Below are positions 23,878 through 29,782 of a stretch of 64,000 nucleotides of DNA, piece after piece. Positions within the stretch are counted from its first letter, which is position 1, and each line of letters begins with the position of its first letter. Under the pieces are notes generated by a model. The model was not told the DNA's origin and did no database searches. It saw nothing but the letters and a program-made list of their open reading frames with translations. Both the position numbers and the translations under genes were made by a program. Source of the DNA: an uncultured Bacilli bacterium (GTDB lineage Bacteria > Bacillota_I > Bacilli_A > RF39 > UBA660); assembly GCA_947626275.1 (NCBI GenBank), contig CANQRL010000002.1, positions 1 to 64,000 of the forward strand, given 5' to 3'.

Positions 23878-23900
23878 AAAAAGAGCTTAGCTCTTTTTTT
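23876..23900. terminator. Bidirectional terminator
   Basis: AAAAAAGAG-CTTAG-CTCTTTTTT between convergent sigK and fic, in contact with both stop codons. Confidence 0.85.
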
Positions 23901-25044
23901 GGGCAAGTCGAATGCGTTTTACTTTCTCCGGATCTAATTCATACATAGAAGGATTGATAGAAAAGAAGCGATTCTCTTTTCTTTCTATCTTTCTACCAGG
24001 AAGAATGATTCCTTTATCGATTAGGGGATAAATCATGGTTTCAATAATCTCTTTCTTACTCTTTTTTTCATTTTGATGATTATAAAAAGCAACGAAATCA
24101 TAATAGGTCATTTGCCCATTCATCGAAAGCATATACTGCATCGTTTGATAATCTAGGGAACTAAGAGGAGATTGACAACTTTGCGAAATCATCTCCATAA
24201 TATGTTCTTTTTCTAACTCCTTTTTGACGGTAACCATCATGTAGTTAAGGAAGAACGTAACGTTTTTAAAGCGACGTACATCCCGGATAACACGATAATA
24301 TTCTTGTTTGGCTAATTGAATTCCTCGATTGAAAATAATAAATGGATAAGCTTGCTGGTTTAAAAGGTACCACATCGCCGTTGTTCTGGAAGTCCGACCA
24401 TTGATATCAAAGTAAGGATGAATATAGAGAAAGTAAAAATGCGCAATTTGGGAAACTAAATAAGTATCCGTCAAGGTTTGTTGCTTTTCTTCTTGTCTTA
24501 AATATTCGAACAATTTTCCCATCTTAAAGGCAATTTCAGATGCTGGAACGCCTTCATCGGGAAGTTTACTAGGGCAATCTGAATAATAGATATAAACAGG
24601 TGCTTGGCGGTAGTACTCCCCCATCATCGCCCTATCTTGTTCCTCTAATAATCCATCCGACAAGATACGATAGAGTTCCTTTAGATTTTCTTCCGTTAGC
24701 TCTCTTCCCTCTAATATATACCGATAACCTTTATACAAATTTAAAATTCTTTTTCGTCTTTTCTCATCACTTATCATCAACCTTTGATGAATCACGTTAT
24801 CCACTAACGATACATCATCCCGATATCCCTCGATAACGTTATTCGCTTGAATTTCGTGGGAGAATAAAACAGATTTAGAAAAGGATATACTTTTCATATA
24901 AGGCATTTCCAATAGAAATTGTTCTAATTCTTCGCGCATGGGTTTTAAATCGTTTTCAATCAAATACAAGGAAGAATGTTCTAAAGGAAGCGGTAACGAC
25001 CGATGAATTTTATACGATTCTTTCCCTTTTATTCGATAATCCAT
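23887..25044 (-). CDS. Fic family protein (putative AMP transferase)
   Basis: 385 residues. The Fic motif HPYFDINGRTSR lies near residue 213, matching HxFx(D/E)xNGRxxR with its catalytic His. An N-terminal IEG segment (NNVIEGYRDD, about 67) occupies the place of the autoinhibitory (S/T)xxxE(G/N) helix of class II Fic proteins, with Asn instead of Ser/Thr. The C-terminal part is a probable winged helix. Such proteins usually transfer AMP to a target side chain. Stand-alone gene, no antitoxin beside it. Confidence 0.9.
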   Translation of the reverse strand: MDYRIKGKESYKIHRSLPLPLEHSSLYLIENDLKPMREELEQFLLEMPYMKSISFSKSVLFSHEIQANNVIEGYRDDVSLVDNVIHQRLMISDEKRRKRILNLYKGYRYILEGRELTEENLKELYRILSDGLLEEQDRAMMGEYYRQAPVYIYYSDCPSKLPDEGVPASEIAFKMGKLFEYLRQEEKQQTLTDTYLVSQIAHFYFLYIHPYFDINGRTSRTTAMWYLLNQQAYPFIIFNRGIQLAKQEYYRVIRDVRRFKNVTFFLNYMMVTVKKELEKEHIMEMISQSCQSPLSSLDYQTMQYMLSMNGQMTYYDFVAFYNHQNEKKSKKEIIETMIYPLIDKGIILPGRKIERKENRFFSINPSMYELDPEKVKRIRLAQKKS

Positions 25045-25069: not shown

Positions 25070-25096
25070 AAAAATAGGAAGATTCCTTCCTATTTT
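25070..25096 (-). terminator. Intrinsic terminator after ileS
   Basis: Perfect 11-bp stem AAAATAGGAAG-GAAT-CTTCCTATTTT, overlapping the ileS stop codon. Confidence 0.85.
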
Positions 25097-28000
25097 GCTT
25101 TTTCAACAGTAAAGAATGTCTGATGTCCATTGATGTCGATTTCTTCTTTGGCTTTCGTACTTTTCGTAATACTTAATGATAAAGTCTCACTTTGAATAAA
25201 TTCTTTGAACTTCTCAATACATTGATCAATATCACTATCTCCTTGATAGTATAAGTTGATTCTATCGGTAACATTGAAGTCGCTATTCTTACGAAGTTGT
25301 TGTACTTTAGAAACGATTTCACGAGCATTTCCTTCCATAATTAAGTCTTCTGTTAAAGTCGTGTCTATAATCATGAAGTTATTATTTTCCATTCCAACAT
25401 CAAAACCTTCTTTAGAAGAAATACGAATATCTACCATCTCAGGAGTGATTTCTTTCTTCTCTCCCCCTAATTCCATCGATATCGTTTTACCTGACTGTAA
25501 CAAGTTGATTTCTTCTGAACTTAAATTTTCTAGTTTCGTCTGGAACTCCTTCATAAGAGGACCAAGAACTTTTCCTACTTCTTTAAAATTAGGTTTTAAA
25601 GAAATGTTCATGTATTCATTTAAATCGTCTACAAATCTTACTTCTTTAATATTCAATTCTTCTGCAATAAGAGGAACTAAATCAGCGATTAAATCACGAT
25701 TTTTACCATCGATTAACGCTTCACTTAATGGTTGGCGAACTTTAATCTTTGTCTCTTCTCTGACATAACGACCAACAGAGATAAGATTACGAACTAAATC
25801 CATCCGATTCTCAACATGTTCATCGATCATTTTCTGATTGCATTTTGGATAATCTGTTAAGTGAACAGATTCTCCACCCGTTAAGTTGCGGTATAACTCT
25901 TCTGCGATAAATGGAGTAATAGGCGCAATTAACTTAGAAAGTCCTACTAATACTTCATAAGTGGTAAGGTATACACTCTTCTTAGAGGTATTGAATTCAC
26001 TACCCCAGAAACGATTTCTATTTCTTCTAATATACCAGTTGGATAAATCCTCTGATACGAAATTGGATAAATAATGCACAACTTTGTTCAAATCGTATTC
26101 ATCAAAAGAAGCTCTAACATCTTGTACTAAACGATTATATTTAGAAAGTAACCACTTATCAATCTCTTCTCTCTTTGCATAAGGAACGTTACAGTTATCA
26201 ATATCGATTTCATCAATATTAGCATACATAGCAAAGAAGCTATAAGTATTTTTAAGAGGATTGAAGAATTTAGAATATACCTCTTTTAATCCAGCAAAGT
26301 CAAACTTTAATGGAGTCCATACTGGAGATACATAGAGTAAATAGAAGCGAACGGTATCAGAACCATATTCTTTAATCGTTGTAAATGGCTCTACAATGTT
26401 ACCGCGAGATTTACTCATCTTCTTCCCTTCCGCATCTAATAGTAAGTCATTGACAAGAACGTTCTTAAATGGAGAACATCCTTTGATAAAAGTAGAGATA
26501 ACTAATAACGTATAAAACCAACCACGTGTTTGATCAATTCCCTCACAAATAAAGTCAGCTGGGAACTGAGATTCCCACAATTCTTGATTTTCAAATGGAT
26601 AATGGTATTGGGCAAAAGGCATTGATCCAGAGTCAAACCAACAGTCTAACACATCTGGAATACGTGTCATAGTCCCCCCACACTTCTCACACTTCAAATG
26701 AATGTTATCAATATATGGTTTATGAAGATCGAAATCCTTACCGATTTTTTCAATTGCCATTTCTTTTAATTCTTGAATAGAACCTACCATATGAGTATGT
26801 CCACATTCACATTTCCAATAAGGGATTGGACTTCCCCAATAACGGCTACGAGATACATTCCAATCACGAGCATTGGCAAGCCAATTCGCGAATCTCTTCT
26901 CTCCCACATAAGCAGGATACCAATTTACTTTCGCATTGGCTTTTACCAATTTATCGGTCATCGCACTTACCTTGATATAATAACTTGGCATTGAGTAATA
27001 GATAAGTGGCGTATCACATCTCCAACAATGTGGATATTCGTGATTAATCTTTTGTTTCTTGAATAACTTGCCATTTTCTCGCAAATAATCGACTACTTCT
27101 TCATTGACATCGTGAACAAATCGTCCATTCCAAAGTCCACCTACATAACATCCATCTTTACCAACTGGATTTAGGTAAGGTAAATCGTATTTTTTACCAA
27201 CATTCGCATCGTCTTCACCAAAAGCTGGAGCAATGTGGACAATTCCGGTTCCATCTTCCATCGTAACATAGGAATCACAAGTGACAAAGAAGCCTTTTTT
27301 ATCTACGTCAAAGGAAGGAATTAACTGCTCATATTCTTGGTATTCTAAATCTTTTCCTTTATACGTTTTTAAGATTTTGGCCTCTTCCCCTAATACTTTT
27401 TCGACTAGGCTTTTTCCCATGATAAACTTTGTACCTTTTGATTCTACTAAAGCATAATCTTCTTCAGGGTTTACACAAAGTCCTACATTGGCAATCAATG
27501 TCCAAGGAGTAGTTGTCCAAGCTAAGAAATAAACATCTTCATCCTTCTTCTTAAAAGGAACAATGACCGTAATTGCAGTATCTGTCTGATAGTTTTGCGC
27601 AACTTCATGGGTAGCTAAACCCGTTCCACAATGTGGACAGTATGGCACTACTCTCGTTCCTTCATAGAACATGTCCTTCTTAAACATTTCTTTTAAAATC
27701 CACCATTCAGTTTCGATATATTCATTCTTATAGGTCAAATAAGGATGTTCTACATCAAAGAATTGTCCCATTTTACGAGTTAAGTCCGTGAAGGCAGATT
27801 CATTTTCCCGAACACTTTTCCGACATTCCTCATTAAATTTATCTACGCCAAGCGTTTCAATTTCTTTCTTAGAAGAAATTCCTAATTTTTTCTCAACATG
27901 ATTTTCAATAGGAAGTCCATGGGTATCCCATCCAATTTTACGGATAACTTTCTTTCCATTCATGACATGATATTTCGTAACAGAATCTTTGAGGTTTTTA

Positions 28001-28188
28001 GAAACCATATGATGAAGTCCTGGAAATCCATTCGCAAAAGCGGGTCCATCATAGAAGACAAAGGTCTTATTGTTCTCTCTTAATTTGACTTGAGCATCAT
28101 GCATAGCATTAATACTTTTCCACGATTTAGAAATTGCTTCTTCTACCTCGCTAACTGGTCTTTTATCTAATTCTTTAAAGTTTTTCAT
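25090..28188 (-). CDS. ileS: Isoleucyl-tRNA synthetase, IleRS2 type with GLHH signature
   Basis: 1032 residues, a length typical of the eukaryote-like IleRS2 group. Class I synthetase: GPAFANGFP precedes the signature at residues 57-60, which reads G-L-H-H instead of H-x-G-H, so first and third positions are swapped. The KMSKS motif is intact near 590 (EGKKMSKSRGN). An editing (CP1) domain and anticodon-binding and C-terminal domains follow, with a CxxC pair near 499. The swapped motif is the one described for mupirocin hyper-resistant IleRS2. It is 2 bp downstream of the CYTH gene and under a T-box. Confidence 0.97.
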   Translation of the reverse strand: MKNFKELDKRPVSEVEEAISKSWKSINAMHDAQVKLRENNKTFVFYDGPAFANGFPGLHHMVSKNLKDSVTKYHVMNGKKVIRKIGWDTHGLPIENHVEKKLGISSKKEIETLGVDKFNEECRKSVRENESAFTDLTRKMGQFFDVEHPYLTYKNEYIETEWWILKEMFKKDMFYEGTRVVPYCPHCGTGLATHEVAQNYQTDTAITVIVPFKKKDEDVYFLAWTTTPWTLIANVGLCVNPEEDYALVESKGTKFIMGKSLVEKVLGEEAKILKTYKGKDLEYQEYEQLIPSFDVDKKGFFVTCDSYVTMEDGTGIVHIAPAFGEDDANVGKKYDLPYLNPVGKDGCYVGGLWNGRFVHDVNEEVVDYLRENGKLFKKQKINHEYPHCWRCDTPLIYYSMPSYYIKVSAMTDKLVKANAKVNWYPAYVGEKRFANWLANARDWNVSRSRYWGSPIPYWKCECGHTHMVGSIQELKEMAIEKIGKDFDLHKPYIDNIHLKCEKCGGTMTRIPDVLDCWFDSGSMPFAQYHYPFENQELWESQFPADFICEGIDQTRGWFYTLLVISTFIKGCSPFKNVLVNDLLLDAEGKKMSKSRGNIVEPFTTIKEYGSDTVRFYLLYVSPVWTPLKFDFAGLKEVYSKFFNPLKNTYSFFAMYANIDEIDIDNCNVPYAKREEIDKWLLSKYNRLVQDVRASFDEYDLNKVVHYLSNFVSEDLSNWYIRRNRNRFWGSEFNTSKKSVYLTTYEVLVGLSKLIAPITPFIAEELYRNLTGGESVHLTDYPKCNQKMIDEHVENRMDLVRNLISVGRYVREETKIKVRQPLSEALIDGKNRDLIADLVPLIAEELNIKEVRFVDDLNEYMNISLKPNFKEVGKVLGPLMKEFQTKLENLSSEEINLLQSGKTISMELGGEKKEITPEMVDIRISSKEGFDVGMENNNFMIIDTTLTEDLIMEGNAREIVSKVQQLRKNSDFNVTDRINLYYQGDSDIDQCIEKFKEFIQSETLSLSITKSTKAKEEIDINGHQTFFTVEKAK

Positions 28189-28190
28189 TT

Positions 28191-28733
28191 TTATTCCTCC
28201 CTCTCAAATCGTAAATCAGTAATCTCTTCTTTTGGATGACCATAGAATTCATAAATTCCTTCGACATCTAAAGTCGTTATTTCTTCCTTTGAAATTTCTA
28301 GCTTTTCCATCGCTTGATATACTTCTTTTTCATCTTTTCCTTCAATTTCCATATACGTTGGAAGCATAGGCCAGGTATCTAAATCGATTTCTACTCCATC
28401 TAAGTTATATTGAATTCGTCTATTTTCCTGAAAACCTTTTGGAGTATATCCTAGTTCCAATAGAATTTGGTTTGTCTTTTCAAAATCATCTACTACAATC
28501 TCTAACTCTTTTGTTCCATCGATTGTCTTCTTTTGAATATCCTTTATCGTTAAAGTTGTTTTTTGACCATTTGTTCGAAGACGTATCCATTTGCTATCTT
28601 GAACAGGGTGAAAATCATACACATATCTTTTCTGTAAGGTGGAAAATATGCGAGAAGCACCCAAAGATTCTAATTTCTCAATCATCTCTGTTTGATCAAT
28701 TTCTAAAACTCTTACTTCGTATTCTGTCTTCAT
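28191..28733 (-). CDS. CYTH domain protein (triphosphate tunnel family)
   Basis: 180 residues. The signature near the N-terminus is E4-Y-E6-V-R8 (family ExExK/R). RLRTNGQKTTLTIKD, ELEIVVDD and PTYMEIEG give the charged strands of the triphosphate tunnel. Members include class IV adenylate cyclases, thiamine triphosphatases and polyphosphatases; which reaction applies cannot be read from the sequence. It lies between the T-box leader and ileS, 2 bp from ileS, so its level should follow isoleucyl-tRNA charging. Confidence 0.88.
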   Translation of the reverse strand: MKTEYEVRVLEIDQTEMIEKLESLGASRIFSTLQKRYVYDFHPVQDSKWIRLRTNGQKTTLTIKDIQKKTIDGTKELEIVVDDFEKTNQILLELGYTPKGFQENRRIQYNLDGVEIDLDTWPMLPTYMEIEGKDEKEVYQAMEKLEISKEEITTLDVEGIYEFYGHPKEEITDLRFEREE

Positions 28734-28950: not shown

Positions 28951-29316
28951 TTATCCTCTGTTTTCAACATCTAATATTTTTTCATCTAATGCCTTTTTTA
29001 ACTTCTCTTTTAAAATGTCGATATTCTTTCGTAGCAAAAAAGATTCCATTTCTACTTTTTCTGCCCGAATTAATGATTCGTTCACAATCCGATCAGCGTT
29101 TCTCTTCGCATCATCCAGAATTTTCTCACTTTCCTGTAAAGCGTTTTCCCGAATCTCTTCGACTTTTTTTAATTCTTGCTCTAAGGCCTTAATCTTAGCG
29201 TCCTGAGAAGATAACTTGACACGCATCGCTTCTTCTTCCTTTAGGGTATCCCTCAAAAGGTCTCGTAATTCCTCTTCATCCATATTTTCCAAAGTAGAAA
29301 CTACCTTTTGACTCAT
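28951..29316 (-). CDS. DivIVA-like coiled-coil protein
   Basis: 121 residues from the ATG at 29316 behind GAGGTG; the in-frame GTG just upstream is part of that site. Almost entirely coiled coil (about 10-115), with the ILDDAKRNADRIVNESLIRAEKVE pattern typical of DivIVA. The canonical N-terminal membrane-binding segment of DivIVA is missing. The position between sepF and ileS matches the sepF...divIVA-ileS order of B. subtilis, which is the main reason for the name. Confidence 0.65.
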   Translation of the reverse strand: MSQKVVSTLENMDEEELRDLLRDTLKEEEAMRVKLSSQDAKIKALEQELKKVEEIRENALQESEKILDDAKRNADRIVNESLIRAEKVEMESFLLRKNIDILKEKLKKALDEKILDVENRG

Positions 29317-29342
29317 GAGATACACCTCGCTAAGCAGAATTT

Positions 29343-29377: not shown

Positions 29378-29782
29378 TTACCACTCTATGTTAATATCAT
29401 CATTATCATGAATGTCTTTTCCGTCAGAATCATCACTAATTTTTCCTTGAACATTGATATTGTTTGGAGTACATAGGAAAATGCCTCCCCCAATCTTTTG
29501 TAAATCTCCACCGATGGCATAAATCGTACCACTCAAAAAATCGACAATTCTTTTGGCTTGGTCACTGGTTACTCTTTTTAGATTGACAACAACGGTATTT
29601 CTCTTTTTTAAATGATCGGCAATTTGTTGAGACTCAGAGAAAGCTCTTGGCTCAAGAAGAATCATTTTGGCGCCGCCTTCTTCTGCCATTTCTTCTGCAT
29701 TCTTAATCTCATAGTATTGGTTCTCATCACCACTAAAAATGTCTTCATCTTCTTTATCAAATATCTTTTTTATAAAACTCAT
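29378..29782 (-). CDS. sepF: Cell division protein SepF
   Basis: 134 residues. An N-terminal amphipathic helix (MSFIKKIFD) for membrane binding, an acidic linker, then the SepF domain (about 40-120) with [26 protein letters not shown] and [10 protein letters not shown], all family hallmarks. SepF tethers FtsZ to the membrane in the divisome. AGGAGG precedes the start. The neighbour divIVA-like gene has its own promoter. A second protein with two SepF-like domains is encoded at 18.9 kb. Confidence 0.93.

Follow-up and report, generated by a model that had tools for sequence, protein, structure and literature searches.

A type 2 isoleucyl-tRNA synthetase with an exchanged class I signature at the ileS locus of an uncultured Bacilli family

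The window (the whole stretch of 64,000 nucleotides that was analyzed) contains an ileS gene on its minus strand (25090..28188), which encodes a type 2 isoleucyl-tRNA synthetase (IleRS2) of 1032 residues according to TIGR00392, Pfam and PDB sequence matches. Upstream of it on the same strand lie sepF (29378..29782; Pfam SepF, 101 bits), a DivIVA-like gene (28951..29325; Pfam DivIVA, 19.8 bits, below the cut-off), a T-box leader (RF00230, 28764..28966; 109.9 bits with cmscan) with an AUC (Ile) specifier read by eye only, and a gene for a CYTH-domain protein (28191..28733; Pfam CYTH, 42 bits). The CYTH gene presumably shares the T-box-controlled operon with ileS; it is patchy in the family and occupies the same interval in eight relatives (L009, L010, L050, L061, L072, L085, L126, and L189). 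Directly downstream of ileS is a Fic-domain gene (23887..25044), as is also the case in L007, L061, and L114. No mobile context was seen around the gene. The source genome (1.40 Mb, 30 contigs, 92.6% complete) contains one full ileS, and a search for a second, HIGH-type copy found none in this draft, in which, given its fragmentation and completeness, such a copy could be missed. The sole copy, the isoleucine-type T-box, and the SepF/DivIVA locus together support the view that this is the housekeeping ileS and not an acquired extra, as the first-pass annotation had proposed from the same gene context.

The active-site signature of the enzyme is unusual. Where class I synthetases have HxGH, residues 57–60 read GLHH (28009..28020, minus strand; codons GGA CTT CAT CAT) in the context DGPAFANGFP-GLHH-MVSK, whereas the second signature, KMSKS, is intact at residues 590–594 (26407..26421, minus strand). 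The motif HYPFE is found in the translation at residues 529–533 (26590..26604, minus strand). In an alignment of 23 family members, G57, H59, and H60 of the IleRS2 proteins are invariant, and an independently assembled relative with 91% identity to the window enzyme (L007) carries the same motif residues. The first-pass annotation was thus right about the position of GLHH, in the protein and in the DNA, and about the intact KMSKS; its identification of the exchange as the GxHH form of IleRS2 agrees with the sequence, the diagnostic residues, and the fold.

The enzyme is an IleRS2 by all of these measures and by its position in a 237-row tree, where it groups with IleRS2 and not with IleRS1. 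The protein scores 933 bits against NCBIfam TIGR00392 (cut-off 621), and the models of the MupA and MupB resistance enzymes also match, each below its own cut-off. Its Pfam domains are tRNA-synt_1, Anticodon_1, and DUF5915, the last of which (residues 840–1030) forms an IleRS2-type C-terminus. IleRS2 proteins are marked by Phe or Thr in place of Tyr-59 (E. coli numbering) and by HYPFE, which is diagnostic of the eukaryote-like IleRS2 (PMC4861432), and the window enzyme accordingly has F51, within PAFANG, where IleRS1 has Tyr. A subgroup of GxHH IleRS2 proteins (L150, L173, L079, and about 35 relatives) has Tyr at residue 51 (YANAKPGIHH) rather than Phe or Thr. The top matches in the PDB sequence search are four P. 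megaterium IleRS2 chains, headed by the GVHH mutant 8c8w (901 bits), which outranks the wild type 8c8u; P. megaterium IleRS1 reaches 406–414 bits (8c9e, 406 bits). The segment ANGFP-GLHH-MVSK of the window enzyme aligns with ANGLP-GVHH-ALGR of 8c8w. An AlphaFold model built with 22 relatives (mean pLDDT 78, but below 60 at both signature motifs, where it is uninformative) matches the fold of 8c8u, 8c8v, and 8c8w over the full length and has 8c8w as its nearest PDB entry (TM 0.81).

The survey of GxHH proposed in the first-pass annotation revealed that the exchange is not peculiar to the source genome but is the usual form in most of its family. A search for ileS covered 145 genomes of the host family (f1), and the genes found were then read; 136 genomes had an IleRS, and none of these had both types. 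IleRS2 is present in 116 of them (110 GxHH, 2 KxHH, 1 HVGH in G032, and 3 without the N-terminus), so that GxHH accounts for 110 of the 113 readable enzymes, and IleRS1 in the other 20 (18 HxGH, one HIGT, and one without the N-terminus). Five more genomes of sampled genera have the IleRS type of their genus mates. Among 245 genomes sampled from the phylum, IleRS2 was found only in the host family and in two other genomes (G330 and G257), both with HIGH. Within the class, a DNA pattern for ANGxPGxHH (it captures the majority of the family's forms, though not every one) occurs in 26 of 296 genomes, all 26 from the host family. Two unverified "Bacteriophage sp." records (L121, MT835536; L122, MT835484) contain a full HIGH-type IleRS2 similar to the one in the Bacilli genome G330; these records most likely represent bacterial contigs rather than phage genes. 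In addition, natural IleRS1 proteins with HxGT, in which Thr replaces the fourth His, occur in three families (L102/L242 in G084, L239 in G162, L324 in G332, L338 in G230, and L339 in G237); a change at the fourth position of HIGH is mentioned only for laboratory-selected strains in PMC10485003.

The GxHH exchange in IleRS2 and its effect on mupirocin were described by Brkic et al. 2023 (PMC10485003). A natural ALHH IleRS2 has a mupirocin Ki of 6.6 mM, and engineering of GVHH into two IleRS2 proteins gave Ki values of 35 and 460 µM, compared with 0.2 and 1.1 µM, an increase of about 200- to 430-fold at a cost of up to 10-fold in catalysis; the same study notes that IleRS2 tolerates an exchange of the first and third motif positions. 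Because the engineered enzymes reached just 35–460 µM and paid this catalytic cost, the exact Ki of the window enzyme is unpredictable. That it activates isoleucine is implied by its being the sole ileS in the assembly. From a sole ileS at a housekeeping locus that encodes a GxHH IleRS2, we infer that the host is naturally hyper-resistant to mupirocin, a reading that these features support well.

Our overall explanation, which we consider very probably correct, is that the window encodes a sole housekeeping IleRS2 in which the His and Gly of HxGH are swapped and which is active yet mupirocin-resistant, the swap being inherited with its IleRS2 lineage. The His at the third position would stand in for the first His in catalysis, as in GxHH and AxHH IleRS2 proteins elsewhere, and its side chain would occupy space that mupirocin needs, so that the enzyme would remain active and bind the drug only at about millimolar levels. 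The T-box leader would tune ileS expression to uncharged tRNA-Ile. GLHH itself would have come with an IleRS2 lineage common to a clostridial relative, which now serves most of the family and sits at a SepF–DivIVA–T-box–ileS locus that IleRS1 holds in other members. In this account we infer the catalytic behavior, the behavior toward the drug, and the direction of transfer.

The 237-row tree bears on the ancestry of the motif. All family IleRS2 proteins except L220–L223 cluster together with strong local support, and the nearest outside row, sister to this main group, is the IleRS2 of Acetoanaerobium noterae (L117, NZ_CP154629), a member of the Clostridia. Like the window enzyme, to which it is 54% identical, it has GxHH (GIHH), KMSKS, and a T-box, but it lies in a different class and without SepF or DivIVA in the stretch that was read. 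The enzymes of the MupA/P. megaterium, Actinomycetota/Thermus, and Bacteroidota sets are placed elsewhere in the tree, whose outside rows are few (plasmid records and PDB entries). Two acquisitions of GxHH were inferred in PMC10485003. The divergent group L220–L223 (G032, G065, G095, and G070) has KFSKS or KFSKT as its second signature and contains HVGH, GIHH, and KIHH forms. Partial second IleRS2 genes were seen in G095 (L228) and G085 (L153), both draft genomes in which contamination is possible.

Comparison with the host phylogeny indicates that members of the family have repeatedly switched between the two IleRS types, often at the same locus. In an rpoB tree of 70 genomes, bearers of IleRS1 and IleRS2 are intermixed: the IleRS1 label changes 13 times, at least nine of these changes are forced by well-supported branches, and monophyly is rejected for each of the two types (AU p 2e-5 and 2e-10). 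The idea that the family gained IleRS2 only once is thereby rejected, with the caveat that mis-binning of draft genomes could inflate the number of type changes. Two comparisons support multiple gains free of this caveat. G044 (IleRS1) and G023 (IleRS2) are nearest neighbors in both rpoB (88%) and SepF (79%), and since these genes agree while the IleRS type differs, ileS has changed there between conserved neighbors; the SepF tree itself, from too short a sequence, has only four strong branches. Further rpoB sister pairs whose IleRS types differ are G123/G081 and G075/G002. In the second comparison, of G083 with G097, G099, G094, and G007, rpoB and ileS lie on the same contigs. About two thirds of the family IleRS1 genes with enough upstream sequence have SepF and/or DivIVA upstream, as family IleRS2 genes often do, and a T-box precedes IleRS1 genes of the family too (L089, L092, and L095).

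These results leave room for a reading in which GLHH is real and the enzyme resistant, but resistance is not the cause of the motif, which arrived together with the gene and persists through compensating residues or through simple tolerance in IleRS2, in gut bacteria that would seldom encounter mupirocin. We give this reading an even chance. Nearly all IleRS2 proteins of the family have the motif, and so does that of Acetoanaerobium, which is to say that it is inherited; most records of the relatives derive from the guts of rabbits, goats, and other animals and not from soil, the home of the mupirocin producer P. fluorescens; many family members thrive with an HxGH-type IleRS1; and the exchange is one that IleRS2 can bear (PMC10485003). 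It concerns only the cause of selection, however, and is compatible with our overall explanation, while the repeated exchange of IleRS1 and IleRS2 shows that something favors switching, one candidate being a compound in the gut that inhibits IleRS. Far less credible is that the window enzyme is an acquired, mupA-like extra copy and that the portion of the genome absent from the assembly conceals a sensitive ileS: the incompleteness of the assembly leaves space for one, and some bacteria do carry both types (PMC10485003), but the T-box and the SepF/DivIVA locus mark a housekeeping place, none of the 136 relatives combines the two types, no mobile element was recognized nearby, and identity to MupA, itself an HAGH enzyme, is 39%. 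Errors in sequencing or binning, or decay of the gene, have next to no chance of explaining GLHH even in a draft assembly, since the frame is open in full, every catalytic block is conserved, and the same residues recur in independently assembled relatives (over 100 separate assemblies in the case of the motif), which makes the motif neither an error nor a product of chance.

The housekeeping, GxHH-type IleRS2 of the window has relatives with further active-site changes, which are apparently undescribed. KMHKS replaces KMSKS in 28 of the 110 family GxHH enzymes (L066:5001-8087, L131, L207, and 25 others; residues 590–594 of the alignment) and in four genes without the N-terminus, and was found in none of the HxGH enzymes that were read. 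Its DNA pattern occurs in one of 120 class genomes, and that one belongs to the host family. The variant co-varies with Gln or His at residue 589 and Ala at residue 598. On the IleRS2 tree the KMHKS state changes nine times and a single clade is rejected (AU p 6e-58). Despite these nine changes, many independent origins are undercut by regional identities, which show that ileS genes are mosaics, with a switch of affinity near residue 540 in L152 and near residue 625 in L116, L136, and L228; the scatter of KMHKS thus stems at least partly from intragenic recombination. The first signature varies as well: Lys takes the first position (KxHH) as KLHH in G130 (L218) and as KIHH in G070 (L223/L323) and in G468 (L322), a second species of the same genus as G070. 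The word KMHKS is absent from the papers that were searched for it, and the main text of PMC10485003 mentions neither the KMHKS nor the KxHH form. We suggest that the His of KMHKS could influence how ATP is handled or how the drug is bound. A broader proposal, which we put forward tentatively and at somewhat less than even odds, is that the ileS locus of the family is a swap site, at which mupirocin-sensitive type 1 and GxHH type 2 enzymes have displaced one another over and over, and that in one group of recombining GxHH enzymes both class I signatures have been remodeled, to GxHH combined with KMHKS and, rarely, to KxHH. If so, three histidines would face the nucleotide from two sides in a class I site with GxHH and KMHKS, a second remodeling step past the described GxHH exchange.

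Among known systems, the closest in kind are the G/AxHH IleRS2 proteins of PMC10485003 (86 sequences, including S. griseus IleRS2 and the ALHH enzyme of D. radiodurans), which are likewise of type 2, with exchanged positions one and three of HxGH, KMSKS kept, and a possible housekeeping role. The window enzyme differs in lying on a separate branch, with its Bacilli family and Acetoanaerobium, and in having relatives with KMHKS or KxHH. Its full-length identity to P. megaterium IleRS2 (8c8u and 8c8w) is about 40%, with the same fold and domain order, but the natural form of that enzyme is HVGH and the GVHH of 8c8w, which is of the same kind as GLHH, was engineered. With the staphylococcal plasmid enzyme MupA it shares the IleRS2 type and, by prediction, mupirocin resistance; MupA, however, is supplied by a plasmid as an additional copy, whereas the ileS of the window serves alone in the housekeeping role.

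The window enzyme therefore belongs to the already described GxHH kind of IleRS2, and the more surprising findings are KMHKS, KxHH, and the recurrent switching between types. In 2023, no simple cause for the motif shift in IleRS2 could be found (PMC10485003). The natural series within this family, from HxGH type 1 through GxHH type 2 to KxHH and to GxHH with KMHKS, lets the tolerance of class I sites to signature changes be measured. In this uncultured family of Bacilli from animal guts, the swapped class I signature, which has been regarded as a special resistance trait of bacteria in soil, is the usual state of the housekeeping enzyme, so that mupirocin, or other inhibitors that target the HIGH site, should spare most of these bacteria.
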